Shown here: positions 15,447-40,477 of the stretch, in pieces
Numbering within the stretch: position 1 is the stretch's first letter
Layout: each line of letters begins with the position of its first letter
Assembly: GCF_013753875.1 (NCBI RefSeq)
Contig: NZ_SMDS01000018.1
Location: forward strand, 124,001-188,000
DNA: 64,000 bases
Direction of reading: 5' to 3'
DNA from: Candidatus Pantoea persica
Lineage (GTDB): Bacteria > Pseudomonadota > Gammaproteobacteria > Enterobacterales > Enterobacteriaceae
Made by a program: the position numbers and the translations under genes
The notes under the pieces: model-generated
Database searches by the model: none
What the model saw: the letters and a program-made list of their open reading frames with translations, nothing else
Told to the model about the DNA's origin: nothing

Positions 15447-15840
15447 AGAGATTCCTGAGTAAGGGAGCAGGCACAGTGTTATCGCTTCCTGACGGAGTGT
15501 CAATAACATATGCCTTTATTCGCATATATTGATCGGGGCAGACTCCCTTGTCGCAGAGCAGCAGCACGGAAGCGTAAAGGCGGCGACAGCTGCTTTGGCG
15601 CTGGTGATGCCCGCTTTCCGCCCAACAGGCAGAAAACGGCGATGGCGGCGACGCGCAGGACGCTCTGGCTTACCCGCACAGTCCTCTGTCGCCGCGACGC
15701 CAGCGCCTCGCGCTTCCCGCCCTGCCTCGCATCCCGCAACTTTATCATCCACACTTAGCCTAAAGCCGTAGTCTGCGCAGCCATTGTGCTTTACACTTCG
15801 CGCCGCAAAATTGAGTAGATCAACGATTAAACAGGCGGTA
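15447..15840. other. Stretch without a recognised gene between arsR and the cold-shock gene
   Basis: About 390 bases. Open frames exist on both strands (for example 15529-15771 forward and 15516-15863 reverse), but none has a recognisable domain, ribosome site or signal sequence. It may hold the arsR promoter on the left and an eroded gene in the middle. Confidence 0.4.
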
Positions 15841-34108: not shown

Positions 34109-35528
34109 TTATGGCCGCTGCGCCGTTTCCACCGGCGGCGCGCTCGGCGGCGGCAGGAAGATATGATCGAGGGTCTCGTGCATCACCGGCGCGGCGGTCA
34201 CCCCTTCGTTGCCGCCATTCTCCAGAATCAGCGCCACCGCTACCTTCGGGCTGTTGAAGGGCGCAAATGCGGTATAGAAGATATGGTCGCGCAGGCGCAC
34301 CGGGATCATCTTCGCGTTATAGACCTGATTCTGCTTCAGGCTGAACACCTGCGAAGTGCCGCTCTTCGCCGCGATGCCGTAGGATGCGGTATGAAAATAT
34401 TTATAGCCGGTGCCGTTCGGCGCGTTGGCCATACCGAATATGGCGCGGCCCACCAGCCCCCAGTAAGGAGAGCGCGCGTCGCCGATTTGCGCCTGCGGCA
34501 GCGCTGGCTGATAGGGCTCCACCGTTTTGCCTCGCTCCGCTTTCGCCAGCAGGTGCGGCGCAATCACTTTGCCGTTGTTGATCAGCGCCACCATCGCCTT
34601 CACCATCTGAATTGGCGTGGCGATCCAGTAGCCCTGCCGATGCCTACCGACACCGTATCGCCCTGATACCAAGCTTTTTTGTACACCTTGAGCTTCCAGT
34701 CACGGCTCGGAAGCAGGCCGTTGTACTCTTCGTTGAGATCGATGCCGGTCGATTTACCGTAGCCGAACTGGCCAAGCATAGTATGGATGCGGTCGATGCC
34801 CATCATAAACGCCACCTGATAAAAGAAGGTGTCGGCGGACTCCTCAATCGCTTTAGTGATGTCCAGCGTGCCGTGGCCGCTCTTTTCCAGTCGCGGTAGC
34901 GGCGGTCGGTACCCGTCAGCGTCCAGGTCGGCGCGCCGAAGAAGCTGGTCTGCGGCGTAATCACGCCGGTCAGCAGCGCCGACATCGCCATATAGGGCTT
35001 CACCGTTGAGGCGGGCGGATAGAGTCCCTAGGTGACGCAGTTGATCAACGGCAGGTTTTTACCCTGATGTGCGTGCGCCAGATCCGCGCCGTAGGGGTAT
35101 TCGCGATCCTGACAGGTATCGATGGTGACGCCGGTAAAGCGGTACTTATTGACCGAGAAGCGCGCCACCTGTTCGTCAGTCATCTCCTCTTTCAGCACCA
35201 CCGGCTTGTAGCGGCTGCTCTGCGTCAGCGCCTTCAGCGTCGCCTGCATATCCTCGATCTTGTAAGGTGTCAGCATAATATCGTACCAGGTGACGTTATG
35301 CACCAGCGGGACGCCGTCGCGATCGAATATCAGCCCGCGCGTCGGCGCGATGGGGATCATTTTCATGTCGTTCTGGTTGGATCGCGTCTGGTAATAGCCG
35401 TGGTCGCGCACCTGAAAGCGATAGAGATTCAGTACCAGAATGGTGAAGCAGATAAGCACCAGCGCGAAGGCGAGCAGCGCCTTGCAGACAAACAGCTTTT
35501 CTTCAGCTTCGAAATTGCGGAAATTCAT
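34109..35528 (-). pseudogene. Second penicillin-binding protein 2 (MrdA paralogue), deleted and frameshifted
   Basis: PBP2 is the elongasome transpeptidase. The start MNFRNFEAEEKLFVCKALL resembles MrdA. After YPYGADLAH about 190 codons are missing, and the sequence resumes at the transpeptidase domain with an in-frame TAG just before GLYPPASTVKPY, where S-x-x-K survives. Frame changes follow near 34870 and 34640. The KSGT motif (IAAKSGTSQVF) is kept. The divergence from E. coli MrdA and the location next to deoD suggest an accessory paralogue, as Salmonella has, not the housekeeping gene. Confidence 0.82.
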
Positions 35529-35674: not shown

Positions 35675-36388
35675 TTAGTCGCCCAGCAGCACCGACTCCA
35701 GCGCGATTTTAATCATGTCGTTGAAGGTGGTCTGGCGCTCGGCAAAGGTGGTCTGCTCGTGGGTGCGGATATGGTCGGACACGGTGCAGATGGTCAGCGC
35801 CTTCGCGCCAAACTCCGCCGCCACGCCATAGATGCCCGCCGCTTCCATCTCTACGCCGAGGATGCCGTACTTCTCTATCACGTCGAACATCTGCGGATCC
35901 GGGGTGTAGAAGAGATCGGCAGAGAAGATGTTGCCGACGCGAGCCTCGACGCCGAGCGCTTTAGCGGCGTCAACCGCGTTGCGCACCGTGTCGAAGTCAG
36001 CGATGGCCGCGAAGTCGTGATCCTTGAAGCGCATGCGGTTGACTTTGGAGTCGGTGCAGGCGCCCATGCCGATCACGATATCACGCAGCTTCACGTCGGC
36101 GCGCACCGCGCCGCAGGAGCCGATGCGGATGATTTTCTTCACACCGAAGTCGGTGATCAGCTCTTTGGTGTAGATCGAGCAGGACGGAATGCCCATGCCG
36201 TGACCCATCACGGAGATTTTGCGGCCCTTATAGGTGCCAGTGTAGCCCAGCATGCCGCGCACGCTGTTCACTTCAACCGGATTTTCCAGAAAGGTTTCCG
36301 CGATGTGCTTCGCGCGTAGCGGGTCGCCCGGCATCAGCACGACGTCGGCGAAATCGCCCATTTCTGCATTAATGTGAGGAGTTGCCAT
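35675..36388 (-). CDS. deoD: Purine nucleoside phosphorylase DeoD-type
   Basis: DeoD cleaves purine ribo- and deoxyribonucleosides to base plus (deoxy)ribose-1-phosphate as a hexamer. The 237-residue product has the phosphate-binding [15 protein letters not shown] region, the family signature [12 protein letters not shown], and [11 protein letters not shown] in the nucleoside site. It follows deoB by 35 bases, as the last gene of the deo operon. The frame is intact. Confidence 0.96.
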
Positions 36389-36423: not shown

Positions 36424-37647
36424 TTACAGCATGCTCTTGCCGTAGTCCATATCGGACAGGCCAAAATAGTGCGCAATCGTCTGACCGATATCCGCGAAGG
36501 TTTCGCGGTAGCCCAGCGAGCCGGGTTTGACCTTCGGTCCGTAGATTAGAATCGGAATATGCTCGCGCGTATGCTCGGTGCCCTGCCAGGTCGGATCGCA
36601 ACCGTGGTCGGCGGTGAGGATCAGAATGTCATCCTCTTTCACCAGCCCCATCAGCTCCGGCAGACGGCGGTCGAATAGCTCCAGCCCGCTCGCGTAGCCG
36701 GCGATGTCGCGACGGTGCCCCCAGGTGGAGTCGAAATCGACGAAGTTGGTAAAGACGATCGACTGGTCGGGCGCCTTTTTCATCTGCTCGATGGTGGCGT
36801 CAAACAGTGCGTCCAGGCCGGTGGCTTTCACCTTCTGCGTGATGCCCTGATGGGCGTAGATGTCGGCGATTTTACCCACCGAAATAACTTCGCCGCCCTT
36901 CTCGTCCACCAGCTTTTTCAGCATGGTCGGCGACGGTGGCTCAACCGCCAGGTCGTGACGGTTGCCGGTACGCTCGAAGTGACCCGCCTTGTCGCCGACA
37001 AACGGACGCGCAATTACGCGGCCGATATTGTAGCCGCCCTCGGTCAGCTCTTCGCGCGCGATTTCGCACAGCTCATAGAGGCGATCGAGGCCGAAGGTCT
37101 CTTCGTGACAGGCGATCTGGAACACCGAGTCCGCCGAGGTATAGAAAATCGGCTTGCCGGTTTTCATATGCCCTTCGCCCAGCCGATCGAGGATCACCGT
37201 GCCGGAAGAGTGACAGTTGCCGAGGTAGCCCGGCAGATTTGCGCGCGCCACCAGCTTATCGAGCAGTTCCTGCGGAAAGCTGTTCTCTTTGTCGCTGAAG
37301 TAGCCCCAGTCGAACAGCACCGGCACGCCGGCGATCTCCCAGTGGCCGGACGGCGTGTCTTTGCCTGACGACAGCTCGCTGGCGTAGGCGTAGGCGCCGA
37401 TAATCTCCGCGTTGGGATCGAGGCCCATTGGGAAGCAGCCGGTGGAGAGTTCGGCGGCCTTGCCCAGACCGAGCGCGGTCATGTTCGGCAGAAGCAGCGG
37501 GCCTTTGCGCCCTTTGTCCGCTTCGCCGTTAAAGCACGCCTTGGCGATATGGCCCAGCGTGTCCGATCCTGCGTCGCCGAATTTGTCGGCGTCTTTGCTT
37601 GAGCCGATTCCAAAGGAATCGAGCACCATAATAAAAGCACGTTTCAT
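36424..37647 (-). CDS. deoB: Phosphopentomutase
   Basis: DeoB interconverts (deoxy)ribose-1-phosphate and (deoxy)ribose-5-phosphate with two Mn ions. The start [15 protein letters not shown] (complement 37647) gives 407 residues, exactly the E. coli length. Metal ligands lie in [17 protein letters not shown] and [10 protein letters not shown], and all are intact. Upstream deoA is broken and deoC is gone, so DeoB can still feed pentose phosphates from DeoD products but cannot pass deoxyribose-5-phosphate to DeoC here. Confidence 0.96.
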
Positions 37648-37839
37648 GCAAGTCTCCTGCGCCTGCGCGCGTGACAAGTCAAAAAAAAAGCGATCAGATA
37701 AGCATACCCGAATGCCTCTCCAGCCGCAGCATAAAGCCGCAATTTTGCCGCTTTACCGCACGAAGCGGGCACGAGCGGGCGGACAACACCGCAAAGCGGC
37801 ACGGTTGTCCGCCTTGCGCCGCAGACCATCCTGGCGCGC

Positions 37840-39057
37840 ACCCGGCGATAGACCACGGGCGTGGCCGCTGGCGCGCTGTCGCTCAGTGTTATCGCGGCCT
37901 TCACTGCAGCGGCGGCCTGCTCCCAGCTAGCCTCGCTGCTGGCGTGGATCATCCGCCTAGCGCGATGGTCTCGCTCAGCCCGACGCTGTAGTCGATCGCG
38001 TCGCTGGCGCGCTGCCGTCCGCCGCCCATAGCTACTACCGCCATGCCGAGCGCGCGCGTATCCATGCTGCTGACGATGCCTTCGCCATCGGCGTAGACCG
38101 CCTTGCTGAGCGTCGGCTGCGGAAGATAAGTGTCTTAGCGTTCGACAAAATCGGCCGGGCCGCCCTGCGCGGCGACCATGCGCCCGAATACCTCTGCCGC
38201 CTGGCCGTTATCCAGCACCTGCATCAGCTTGTTGCGCGCCTCCTCTTCGCTGACGGCTAGCCTGCCGGAGATCAGCATCTCGCTGCACAGCACTAGCGTC
38301 ACCTCCAGCAGGAGCGGATTGCGCGCCGCACCGGTGAGAAAGCGCAACGCTTCGCGCACTTCCAGCGCGTTGCCTGCGCTCGACGCCAGCACCTGATTCA
38401 TATCGGTGAGCAGCGCGGTGGTGGTGCAGCCCGCGCCGTTCGCCACGCCGACAACCGCCTGCGCCAGATCGATCGACGCCTCGAAGGTCGGCATAAAGGC
38501 ACCGGAACCGACTTTGACGTCCATAACCAGCGCGCCCAGCCCTTCCGCCAGCTTCTTCGCGAGAATCGAGGCGGTGATCAGCGGAATCGAGTCCACGGTG
38601 GCGGTGATATCGCGCGTGGCGTAGAAGCGCTTGTCCGCCGGCGCGAGCGAGCGGGTTTGGCCGATAATCGCCACGCCGACCTATTTAATGATCCGGCGGA
38701 AGCGATCATCGTCCGAGAAAATGTCGAAGCCCGGAATCGCCTCCAGCTTGTCGAGCGTGCCGCCGGTGTGGCCGAGGCCGAGACCGGAGATCATCGGCAC
38801 GTAGCCGCCGCAGGCGGCTACCATCGGCCCCAGCATCAGCGAGGTGACGTCGCCGACGCCGCCGGTGGAGTGCTTGTCGACCACCGGCCCGTTAAGGTTC
38901 AGCGACTGCCAGTCGAGCACCGTGCCGGAGTCGCGCATTGCCATGGTGAGCGCCACACGCTCCGGCAGCAACATATCGTGAAAAAAGATGGTCATCGCCA
39001 GCGCGGCGATCTGTCCTTCGGTAACCGTATTGTCGCGCACGCAGTTGATGAAGAAGC
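37840..39057 (-). pseudogene. deoA: Thymidine phosphorylase, 5'-deleted with stops
   Basis: DeoA splits thymidine to thymine and deoxyribose-1-phosphate. The first ~23 codons are missing; the gene begins at [11 protein letters not shown], fused to yjjV. Catalytic-region motifs [18 protein letters not shown] and [20 protein letters not shown] are kept. A TAG (complement 38681-38683) follows RRIIK, and a TAA follows FVER near 38135. The C-terminal ~12 codons before IHASSE are missing. The normal stop is not found, so the 3' limit is approximate. Confidence 0.9.
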
Positions 39058-39571
39058 GGAAGAGATTATGCGTGTTGCGCCACAGCGCGTCGGCTATCGT
39101 CTGCGGCGCTTCGGGGCGGAGTTCGCACAGCGTCTGCCACACCAGACGTGCGCGTTCCGGGCGGTTCGGCTCGCCCTGAAAACCGTGCAGCGGCATATCG
39201 GGCGCGTCGGTCTCCAGCAGCAGCGCGTCGAGCAGCGCCTCCTGACGCGTAAAATCGGGGGTCTCCATATAGAGATCGAGTCCGATCTCGCCGATCGCCA
39301 CCAGCTTCGTCGAGCGGCGCTGTAGCCGCTCCTCGAGCTGCGCTAGATGCGCCTCTTCATGGCGATCGATGGCAATGGGATGCAGGCCGAGCGCGGCGTA
39401 GAGGGCGCAATGCCGATCCGCCAGCGCCGCGATGTGCGCGAAGCGGCTGGCCTCCACCGCCGGCACGATAATGCGCGCCACGCCCGCCTCGGCGGCGCGC
39501 GCGATGCTCTTTTCCTTCTCGCCGACAAAGGGCGGGAAGTCGAAGTGGCAGTGGGTGTCGATAAATCTCAT
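39058..39571 (-). pseudogene. yjjV: TatD-family metal-dependent hydrolase YjjV, internally deleted and fused to deoA
   Basis: The start [15 protein letters not shown] carries the first metal histidines, and [10 protein letters not shown] holds the glutamate. After RQEALLDA about 75 codons are missing, with two catalytic histidines, and the frame resumes at [17 protein letters not shown] with the aspartate. It then reads NTHNLF and passes directly into deoA. In E. coli yjjW, yjjI, deoC and the deoA start lie between, so a multi-gene deletion made the fusion. The fused frame is open for 296 codons. Confidence 0.9.
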
Positions 39572-39587
39572 GCCAGCGAATCCTCAC

Positions 39588-40477
39588 CTAGTCTGCGTCG
39601 TTGCCCGCCAGCGGCGGTGTCATCACCGGCCGGTTGTAGGGCGCGTTGGCCACCGGCGCCGGCGGCGTGACCGTGGCGCAGCGCAAAAACGGCTCGGCGT
39701 CGCTCAGCCACTTGCCCAGCGTGGTGAGGAAATAGCGGCCGCAGCGGCATCCCAGATGGTAATCCTGATTCAGGGAGGCGACGCGGCTGCCCAGCGCCAT
39801 GCTCGCCGGCACGTGCGGCGGATAAATTTCAATGATACGCAGGTCGCCGGGCGGCGGCTCGATAAACTGCTGAATGTCGCGGTAGCTAGCTTCATGATGA
39901 TGCAGGATATTGATCATCGGCTGCAGTGCGCCGTCGATCAGCCAGCGCTCCATACGCCTGATCCATTTCGGCGTGTAGAACATTTGCGACGGCACGGTGC
40001 GGAGCACCACGATGGTGTCGGCGCCGCGGCCGCTTCGCGCACCAGAATGGCGTCGCTGATGCCGCCGTCGAGATCTGATCCCCTCCAGGTTGACGCCGAG
40101 CCGGTAGAAGCAGGAATGGCGCTGGAGGCTTTAATCAGATCTTGCCAGTTGGCGCTGTAGCCCGGCGTGTAGTCGTCGCTGCGGCAAGTGCACAGGTAGA
40201 ACTCGCGTCCGCCATCGAACAACAGCTTGCCGCTCTCCAGCGCCAGCGGCAGCTCGCGGCGCGTCACCTCAATCAGCCAGTCGAGATCGATCAGATTGCC
40301 GCGGCGCATAGAGATGAAAGGGATTGAATTTCGCCCGCCGGAACTCATCCAGCACGCCGGCGGTAAAAATGCCGCGCTGGCCTTGGCCCTCGCAGATCAG
40401 GGCGATTTTTGCGCTTTAAACGGGGAAAGAACTAAGGGCTCAATGGCGCCCAGCGTAACAGGAATGCGAATACCCAC
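39588..40477 (-). pseudogene. yjjU: Patatin-like phospholipase YjjU, active site deleted
   Basis: YjjU is a patatin-family lipid hydrolase. The probable GTG start (complement 40475-40477, after GAGGAG) begins MGIRIPVTLGAIEPL. One shift follows KAQK. The oxyanion motif reads EGQGQRG instead of EGGGQRG. After FNPFHLY the GTSAG serine block is deleted, and the gene resumes at RRGNLIDLDWLIE. A further shift occurs near 40080. The C-terminal half (SQMFYTPKWIRRMERWL) is open to 39588. It sits upstream of yjjV as in E. coli. Confidence 0.87.

Follow-up and report, generated by a model that had tools for sequence, protein, structure and literature searches.

An open reading frame of 296 codons in the genome of Candidatus Pantoea persica joins the beginning of yjjV to a piece of deoA, and the question is whether this chimera is a working protein, a bridge for transcription of the deo genes that follow it, or a by-product of a decaying genome. 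The frame lies in a stretch of 64,000 nucleotides (the window; positions 124001–188000 of contig C10), taken from an assembly of 2.85 Mb in 23 contigs with a completeness of 98.03%. The frame was most likely the result of ordinary genome decay. We give a probability of about 0.9 to the reading that two pseudogenes have merged here into a chimera without function, in a Pantoea genome undergoing reduction of the kind seen in insect symbionts; under this reading, deoB and deoD would have been kept and transcribed from an internal promoter, as judged from sequence comparison.

Composition of the yjjV::deoA frame

In the open reading frame list, the frame is on the minus strand, with its ATG at 39571 and its TAG ending at 38681; this agreed with the extent given in the first-pass annotation, where the strand was not stated. 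The plus-strand frame over 38681–39571 was not open (two stops on translation); a 222-aa ORF was likewise open on the strand opposite to the yjjV::deoA frame. The frame starts at the ancestral yjjV start, follows yjjV up to about codon 254 with 83 internal codons missing, continues with deoA residues ~23–147 (E. coli numbering) and ends at a TAG within deoA. Three pieces were distinguished, all on the minus strand. The 5′ piece of yjjV (39217–39571; codons 1 to ~118) matched nt 1–355 of yjjV from the relative G009 in blastn as well as Pfam TatD_DNase, and it carries DTHCHFDF and GEIGLD. The 3′ piece of yjjV (39064–39236; codons ~196 to ~254) matched nt 585–750 of the same gene, with its end placed by eye, and carries ETDAPDMP. 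The 5′ piece of deoA (38681–39060) was delimited by alignment and by the match to PDB 1azy, and the TAG occupies 38683–38681.

Both halves were recognized by family models in NCBIfam. The YjjV-type hydrolase model PRK11449 matched the frame in two stretches (E=3.6e-69; the best covered residues 1–116), and the thymidine phosphorylase model TIGR02643 matched residues 171–296 (E=3.4e-69). These E-values indicated that the halves are homologous to yjjV and deoA and not chance resemblances. All matches were partial. Pfam TatD_DNase was also found in two stretches, the best of which (residues 4–115) covered profile positions 1–112 of 253, while residues 172–216 matched the helical domain of pyrimidine phosphorylases and residues 228–296 matched only positions 1–72 of 253 of their alpha/beta domain. 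The TIGR02643 score of the frame was 233.8 bits, below the cut-off of 570.7, compared with 751.3 for the intact DeoA of G009. For NF008522 (YjjV), the frame scored 232.8 bits against a cut-off of 481, which is a strict one, as the intact YjjV of G009 (438.7 bits) was likewise under it.

Set against the known enzymes, the frame shares the N- and C-terminal segments of YjjV (NF008522; PDB 1zzm aligned with the first half in two pieces), but the 83 central codons are missing. It shares residues 22–147 of DeoA (TIGR02643; PDB 1azy, the E. coli thymidine phosphorylase, aligned over these residues with the second half) and lacks the start and everything beyond residue 147 of 440. The metal ligands of the TatD family are HxH, Glu, His, His and Asp. 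No continuous TatD domain with all of these ligands was present in the frame: the profile match was split, its middle was missing, and the missing codons include those for both central His segments, which read VILHSR and VVHGF in G009 YjjV. The catalytic residues of E. coli thymidine phosphorylase, which we take to be Arg171, Ser186 and Lys190, were absent, since the alignment to E. coli DeoA covers residues 22–147 only. The motifs that survived were the TatD DTHCHF in the yjjV half and a 10-letter Deo segment in the other half. Both predicted catalytic centres of the fusion are incomplete, as the first-pass annotation had also recognized, and its description of the frame as probably a by-product draws its support from these missing parts.

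Ancestral gene order and the two deletions

The order yjjV-deoC-deoA-deoB was found in all 11 regions from genomes of the same genus, some of them with broken genes. As read from the comparison with relatives, the ancestral order here is yjjV-deoC-deoA-deoB-deoD. Neither yjjW nor yjjI lay between yjjV and deoC in any of the 11 same-genus regions or of 13 loci named Pantoea, which indicated that the E. coli arrangement was not the local ancestor. In all, 91 loci were examined; 80 of these were named ones picked for their resemblance to the frame, and at least two genomes were counted twice. In this set, 28 loci carried yjjW, with no locus named Pantoea among them, and two further loci carried a partial yjjI. 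The loss of yjjW and yjjI in the window lineage was rejected because both were absent from the same-genus and named Pantoea loci. Thus, of the deletion first described relative to E. coli (yjjW, yjjI, deoC and the deoA start), the loss of deoC and of the deoA start stood, and that of yjjW and yjjI did not.

When DNA spanning the junction was used as a query, 59 of the 61 genomes of the genus gave a match, and only the match of the window itself spanned the junction. None of the 60 other genomes did so; 58 of them matched in part, with yjjV and deoA apart or with the deoA side alone (G010, G068, and G073), and no yjjV-deoA fusion was present among these 58. The neighbours are intact and separate in relatives and the lesions are unique to the window lineage, which is the pattern of a pseudogene chimera.

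Two in-frame deletions account for the frame, as had been proposed from the window alone. Their breakpoints were read from blastn to G009 yjjV, from the alignment and from comparison of the relatives' sequences. The first removed 249 bp (83 codons) from yjjV, as aligned to G009. At its site (39217–39236), where both arms match, the arms are alike over about 20 bp, and in the relative G007 they share an exact 11-bp direct repeat; this deletion probably arose between short direct repeats. The second, seen in the alignment, has its breakpoints near codon 254 of yjjV and, in E. coli numbering, near codon 22 of deoA; compared with G009, it measures about 1.1 kb. It took away the last ~4 codons of yjjV, the deo promoter region, the whole of deoC and the first ~22 codons of deoA. 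The intergenic region removed carries, in the relatives' copies, sequences recognized in the alignment that we take to be CRP/CytR- and DeoR-like. The arms at the junction (39060–39071) share ~2 bp, as judged by eye, and this deletion probably arose with almost no homology. An in-frame outcome is expected for one deletion in three. Therefore, a frame that stays open across two deletions, with a neutral chance of ~1/3 × 1/3, is not improbable. In the window genes scored as broken, 34 of 128 indels were multiples of three, a count that includes alignment noise and some wrong-strand ORF picks.

The genes on both sides of the junction were damaged. Directly upstream, yjjU (39568–40477, minus strand), which is presumably patatin-like, was a pseudogene with several indels in the alignment, including one of 122 bp; in G009, the yjjU stop overlaps the yjjV start. 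Downstream, the rest of deoA (37831–38680, minus strand) was a pseudogene with an in-frame TAA at 38137–38135 and a 28-bp gap near 37951. In G009 numbering, the lesions of deoA were the TAG at codon 152 that ends the frame, the TAA at codon 334 and the 28-bp gap at nt 1184; TGA, TAG and TAA were counted in the protein-level match. A terminator-like hairpin follows deoA, with −14.0 kcal/mol in G009, −12.1 in P. piersonii and −10.5 in the window.

No match to deoC was found anywhere in the organism's own assembly, by protein search or with the family model TIGR00126, and the pyrimidine phosphorylase model TIGR02644 matched only the broken window copy of deoA in this genome; a second deoC or deoA copy elsewhere was ruled out by these searches. 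Across the genus, deoC was matched in 58 of 61 genomes, the exceptions being the source genome itself (G000), G013 and G067, and the TIGR00126 search found it in 10 of 14 control genomes. Two other TatD-family copies, named in part by their position, were observed in the source genome: one beside what we take to be tatB/tatC-like genes (L141 8762–9109, G000:C20) has a TAG inside the match, and one presumed to be ycfH-like (L142 882–1673, G000:C11) is open over 263 aa.

Constraint on the fused pieces and the sequence before deoB

To count changes on the window branch, we used the sites at which G009, G007 and P. piersonii agree. The fused pieces had 31 nonsynonymous changes, including the TAG, and 27 synonymous ones, with an omega of 0.293; the omega of deoA downstream of the TAG was 0.277, that of deoB+deoD 0.100 and that of prfC 0.070. 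By piece, the omega of the frame was 0.464 for the 5′ part of yjjV, 0.147 for the 3′ part (9 changes) and 0.215 for the 5′ part of deoA. The nonsynonymous to synonymous counts were 31:27 in the fused pieces and 20:20 in the rest of deoA (Fisher P 0.84). Constraint in the frame did not exceed that in the remainder of deoA.

In relatives, the omega of the fused pieces was 0.000 (G009), 0.118 (G007), 0.056 (P. piersonii), 0.247 (G008), and 0.375 (G014), and the window count of 31:27 differed from the pooled 10:44 of G009, G007 and P. piersonii (P 0.0002). The omega of deoB+deoD was likewise raised in the window (0.100; P 0.001) against P. piersonii (0.020), G007 (0.037), and G009 (0.008), and dividing the omega of the fused pieces by that of deoB+deoD gave 2.9 for the window, against 2.8 (P. 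piersonii), 3.2 (G007) and 2.5 (G008). G008, whose yjjV and deoA have no stop, did not differ from the window in the fused pieces (Fisher P 0.74). The whole window branch was elevated and G008 was similar, so omega did not show a loss of constraint specific to the frame, and branch dN/dS does not settle the function of the fused pieces. The case for a non-functional product comes from the missing parts of both enzymes and not from omega.

Both deoB (36424–37647, minus strand; phosphopentomutase, 407 aa) and deoD (35675–36388, minus strand; purine-nucleoside phosphorylase, 237 aa) were intact, with no stops or gaps, and they scored 623.8 bits for TIGR01696 (cut-off 341.2) and 404.3 bits for TIGR00107 (cut-off 232.25), respectively. 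A conserved promoter-like element, GGTATGCTTATCTGATC, is found upstream of deoB (37692–37708, minus strand), and its commonest form in relatives is GGTATACTGATCTGATC. The −10-like element sits 44 nt upstream of deoB. With up to 5 mismatches and within 150 bp upstream of deoB, the GGTATACTGATCTGATC core was present in 82 of 90 loci of relatives, Escherichia included, and exact in 42; it was missing in the other eight, from Proteus (5), Serratia, Edaphovirga and Edwardsiella. In a shuffle control, 0 of 2000 had fewer than 3 mismatches. The window has two changes in the element: the −10-like hexamer reads TATGCT instead of TATACT, and outside it a G is replaced by T. The TATGCT variant was also observed in G068, the E. 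servus symbiont (L080, L132). The G014 element has four mismatches, and deoB and deoD are kept there nonetheless.

A block of 68 columns before deoB was nearly invariant in close relatives, and the window had changed at 2 of the 63 sites that are identical in five relatives. The chance of so few changes was P 0.0006 at a rate of 0.1745, the window-branch dS of the fused pieces, and P 0.012 at a rate of 0.123, that of deoB+deoD. The changes were 1/63 in G016, 6/62 in G014 and 6/63 in G008, the latter two not unusual at either rate. The element before deoB escaped a simple sigma-70 scan, probably for lack of a good −35 hexamer to accompany it. It is plausible that the conserved element is an internal deoB promoter. 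This reading follows the precedent of what we take to be an internal promoter of deoB in E. coli; no paper on an internal deo promoter upstream of deoB (deoP3) was found in a literature search. With such a putative promoter, transcription through the fusion would not be needed for deoB and deoD. The first-pass annotation had suggested that transcription of the frame may still serve these genes, which is possible and, given the element directly upstream of deoB, unnecessary.

Genome reduction and the nature of the chimera

The genomes of the genus (61) spanned 3.9–6.6 Mb except for the source genome, G014 (2.4 Mb), G067 (1.4 Mb), and G073 (2.4 Mb, 74% complete). Positions 15720–63990 of the window (48 kb) were collinear with 107 kb of P. 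piersonii (G061:C21:222869–329454), with many genes missing or broken. The gaps relative to P. piersonii were about 8, 20, 17, and 6 kb, some of which may instead be insertions in P. piersonii, and there were many frameshifts. In a rough tally of 108 genes, 54 were absent, 39 broken and 15 intact; the underlying pick of the longest ORF was greedy, with wrong-strand choices (e.g., prfC and deoD), and the 54 include some genes from beyond the collinear stretch. At 34109–35528, a gene resembling that for penicillin-binding protein 2 (PBP2), of 625 aa in relatives, has lost 402 bp in one deletion and carries smaller indels as well as a stop.

According to PMC8032781, Pantoea symbionts of stink bugs have reduced genomes with many pseudogenes. 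The likeness of the erosion pattern to these symbionts suggested that the window organism is insect-associated; the genus is the same, the genomes are reduced and rich in pseudogenes, and deoC and deoA are broken in G068 and G014. However, the yjjV::deoA junction was present in neither G068 nor G014, and G014 keeps deoC in parts. Lesions common to the window and G014 were sought, and no stop in yjjV or deoA was shared.

Three other explanations of the frame were weighed. That the chimera works as a protein, or keeps the function of one part such as a truncated TatD-type fold or a DeoA dimerization piece, is hardly credible: the frame is open over 296 codons from the ancestral yjjV start, conserved motifs are left in both halves and omega did not demonstrate a loss of constraint, but the middle of the TatD profile is missing, DeoA is cut at 147 of 440, constraint is no higher than in the rest of deoA and no relative has the junction. 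It is also very improbable that the junction or the stops come from an assembly or sequencing error. In the assembly, the junction lies inside a 343-kb contig with both sides fitting the ancestral order, deoC is absent from the whole assembly and other window genes carry lesions too.

The fusion might instead have been kept as a bridge by which a promoter upstream of yjjU or yjjV drives deoB and deoD after loss of the deo promoter. All of these genes are on one strand, deoB and deoD are intact although the deo promoter region was deleted, and the element before deoB has two changes. We consider such a bridge unlikely, since the 2/63 changes before deoB lie below the synonymous rates and make an internal promoter plausible and the bridge unnecessary, and the promoter upstream of yjjU/yjjV is only hypothetical. 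In addition, a transcript running through ~1.7 kb of pseudogene with stops would be prone to premature termination. The reading of an inert chimera is preferred here. Its product, if any, would lack two TatD metal-ligand segments and all of thymidine phosphorylase past residue 147 and would do nothing. Transcription of deoB and deoD would start from the putative promoter just upstream of deoB and would not pass through the fusion, and both genes may be retained for the salvage of ribose-phosphate and purine nucleosides.

In the account given in PMC3258297, DeoA splits thymidine, DeoB turns deoxyribose-1-phosphate into the 5-phosphate and DeoC degrades the 5-phosphate. With deoC missing and deoA broken, the breakdown of thymidine and deoxyribose looks lost in the window organism. 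It is plausible that ribose-phosphate salvage was kept, as deoB and deoD are retained in the genome, together with a uridine-phosphorylase-like gene (G000:C20) that is open over 261 aa. In the genus survey, deoC was sought in all 61 genomes and deoA, deoB and deoD in 14 of these. In G014, deoC and deoA were broken and deoB and deoD kept; in G068, deoC and deoA were broken and deoD was split; G005 had a split deoA, a broken deoB and an intact deoC; and G013 had no deoC, deoA, deoB or any close deoD match. A general rule of deoC and deoA lost with deoB and deoD kept was rejected because G068, G005 and G013 are broken differently. A narrower proposal is quite doubtful. It holds that some reducing Pantoea lineages have repeatedly, and under mild selection, given up the deoxyribose branch (deoC and deoA, and with them thymidine breakdown) and kept the ribose branch (deoB, deoD, and the udp-like gene). 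In the window lineage, one deletion would then have struck both genes of the deoxyribose branch together with the old promoters, moving deoB-deoD to an internal promoter.

The frame shows clearly how a decaying genome comes, through in-frame deletions, to contain a chimeric ORF that might be listed as a protein by automated annotation. The loss of deoC and deoA is thereby assigned to the window lineage, which retains deoB and deoD, and the conserved sequence before deoB is a candidate promoter that could make this loss tolerable.
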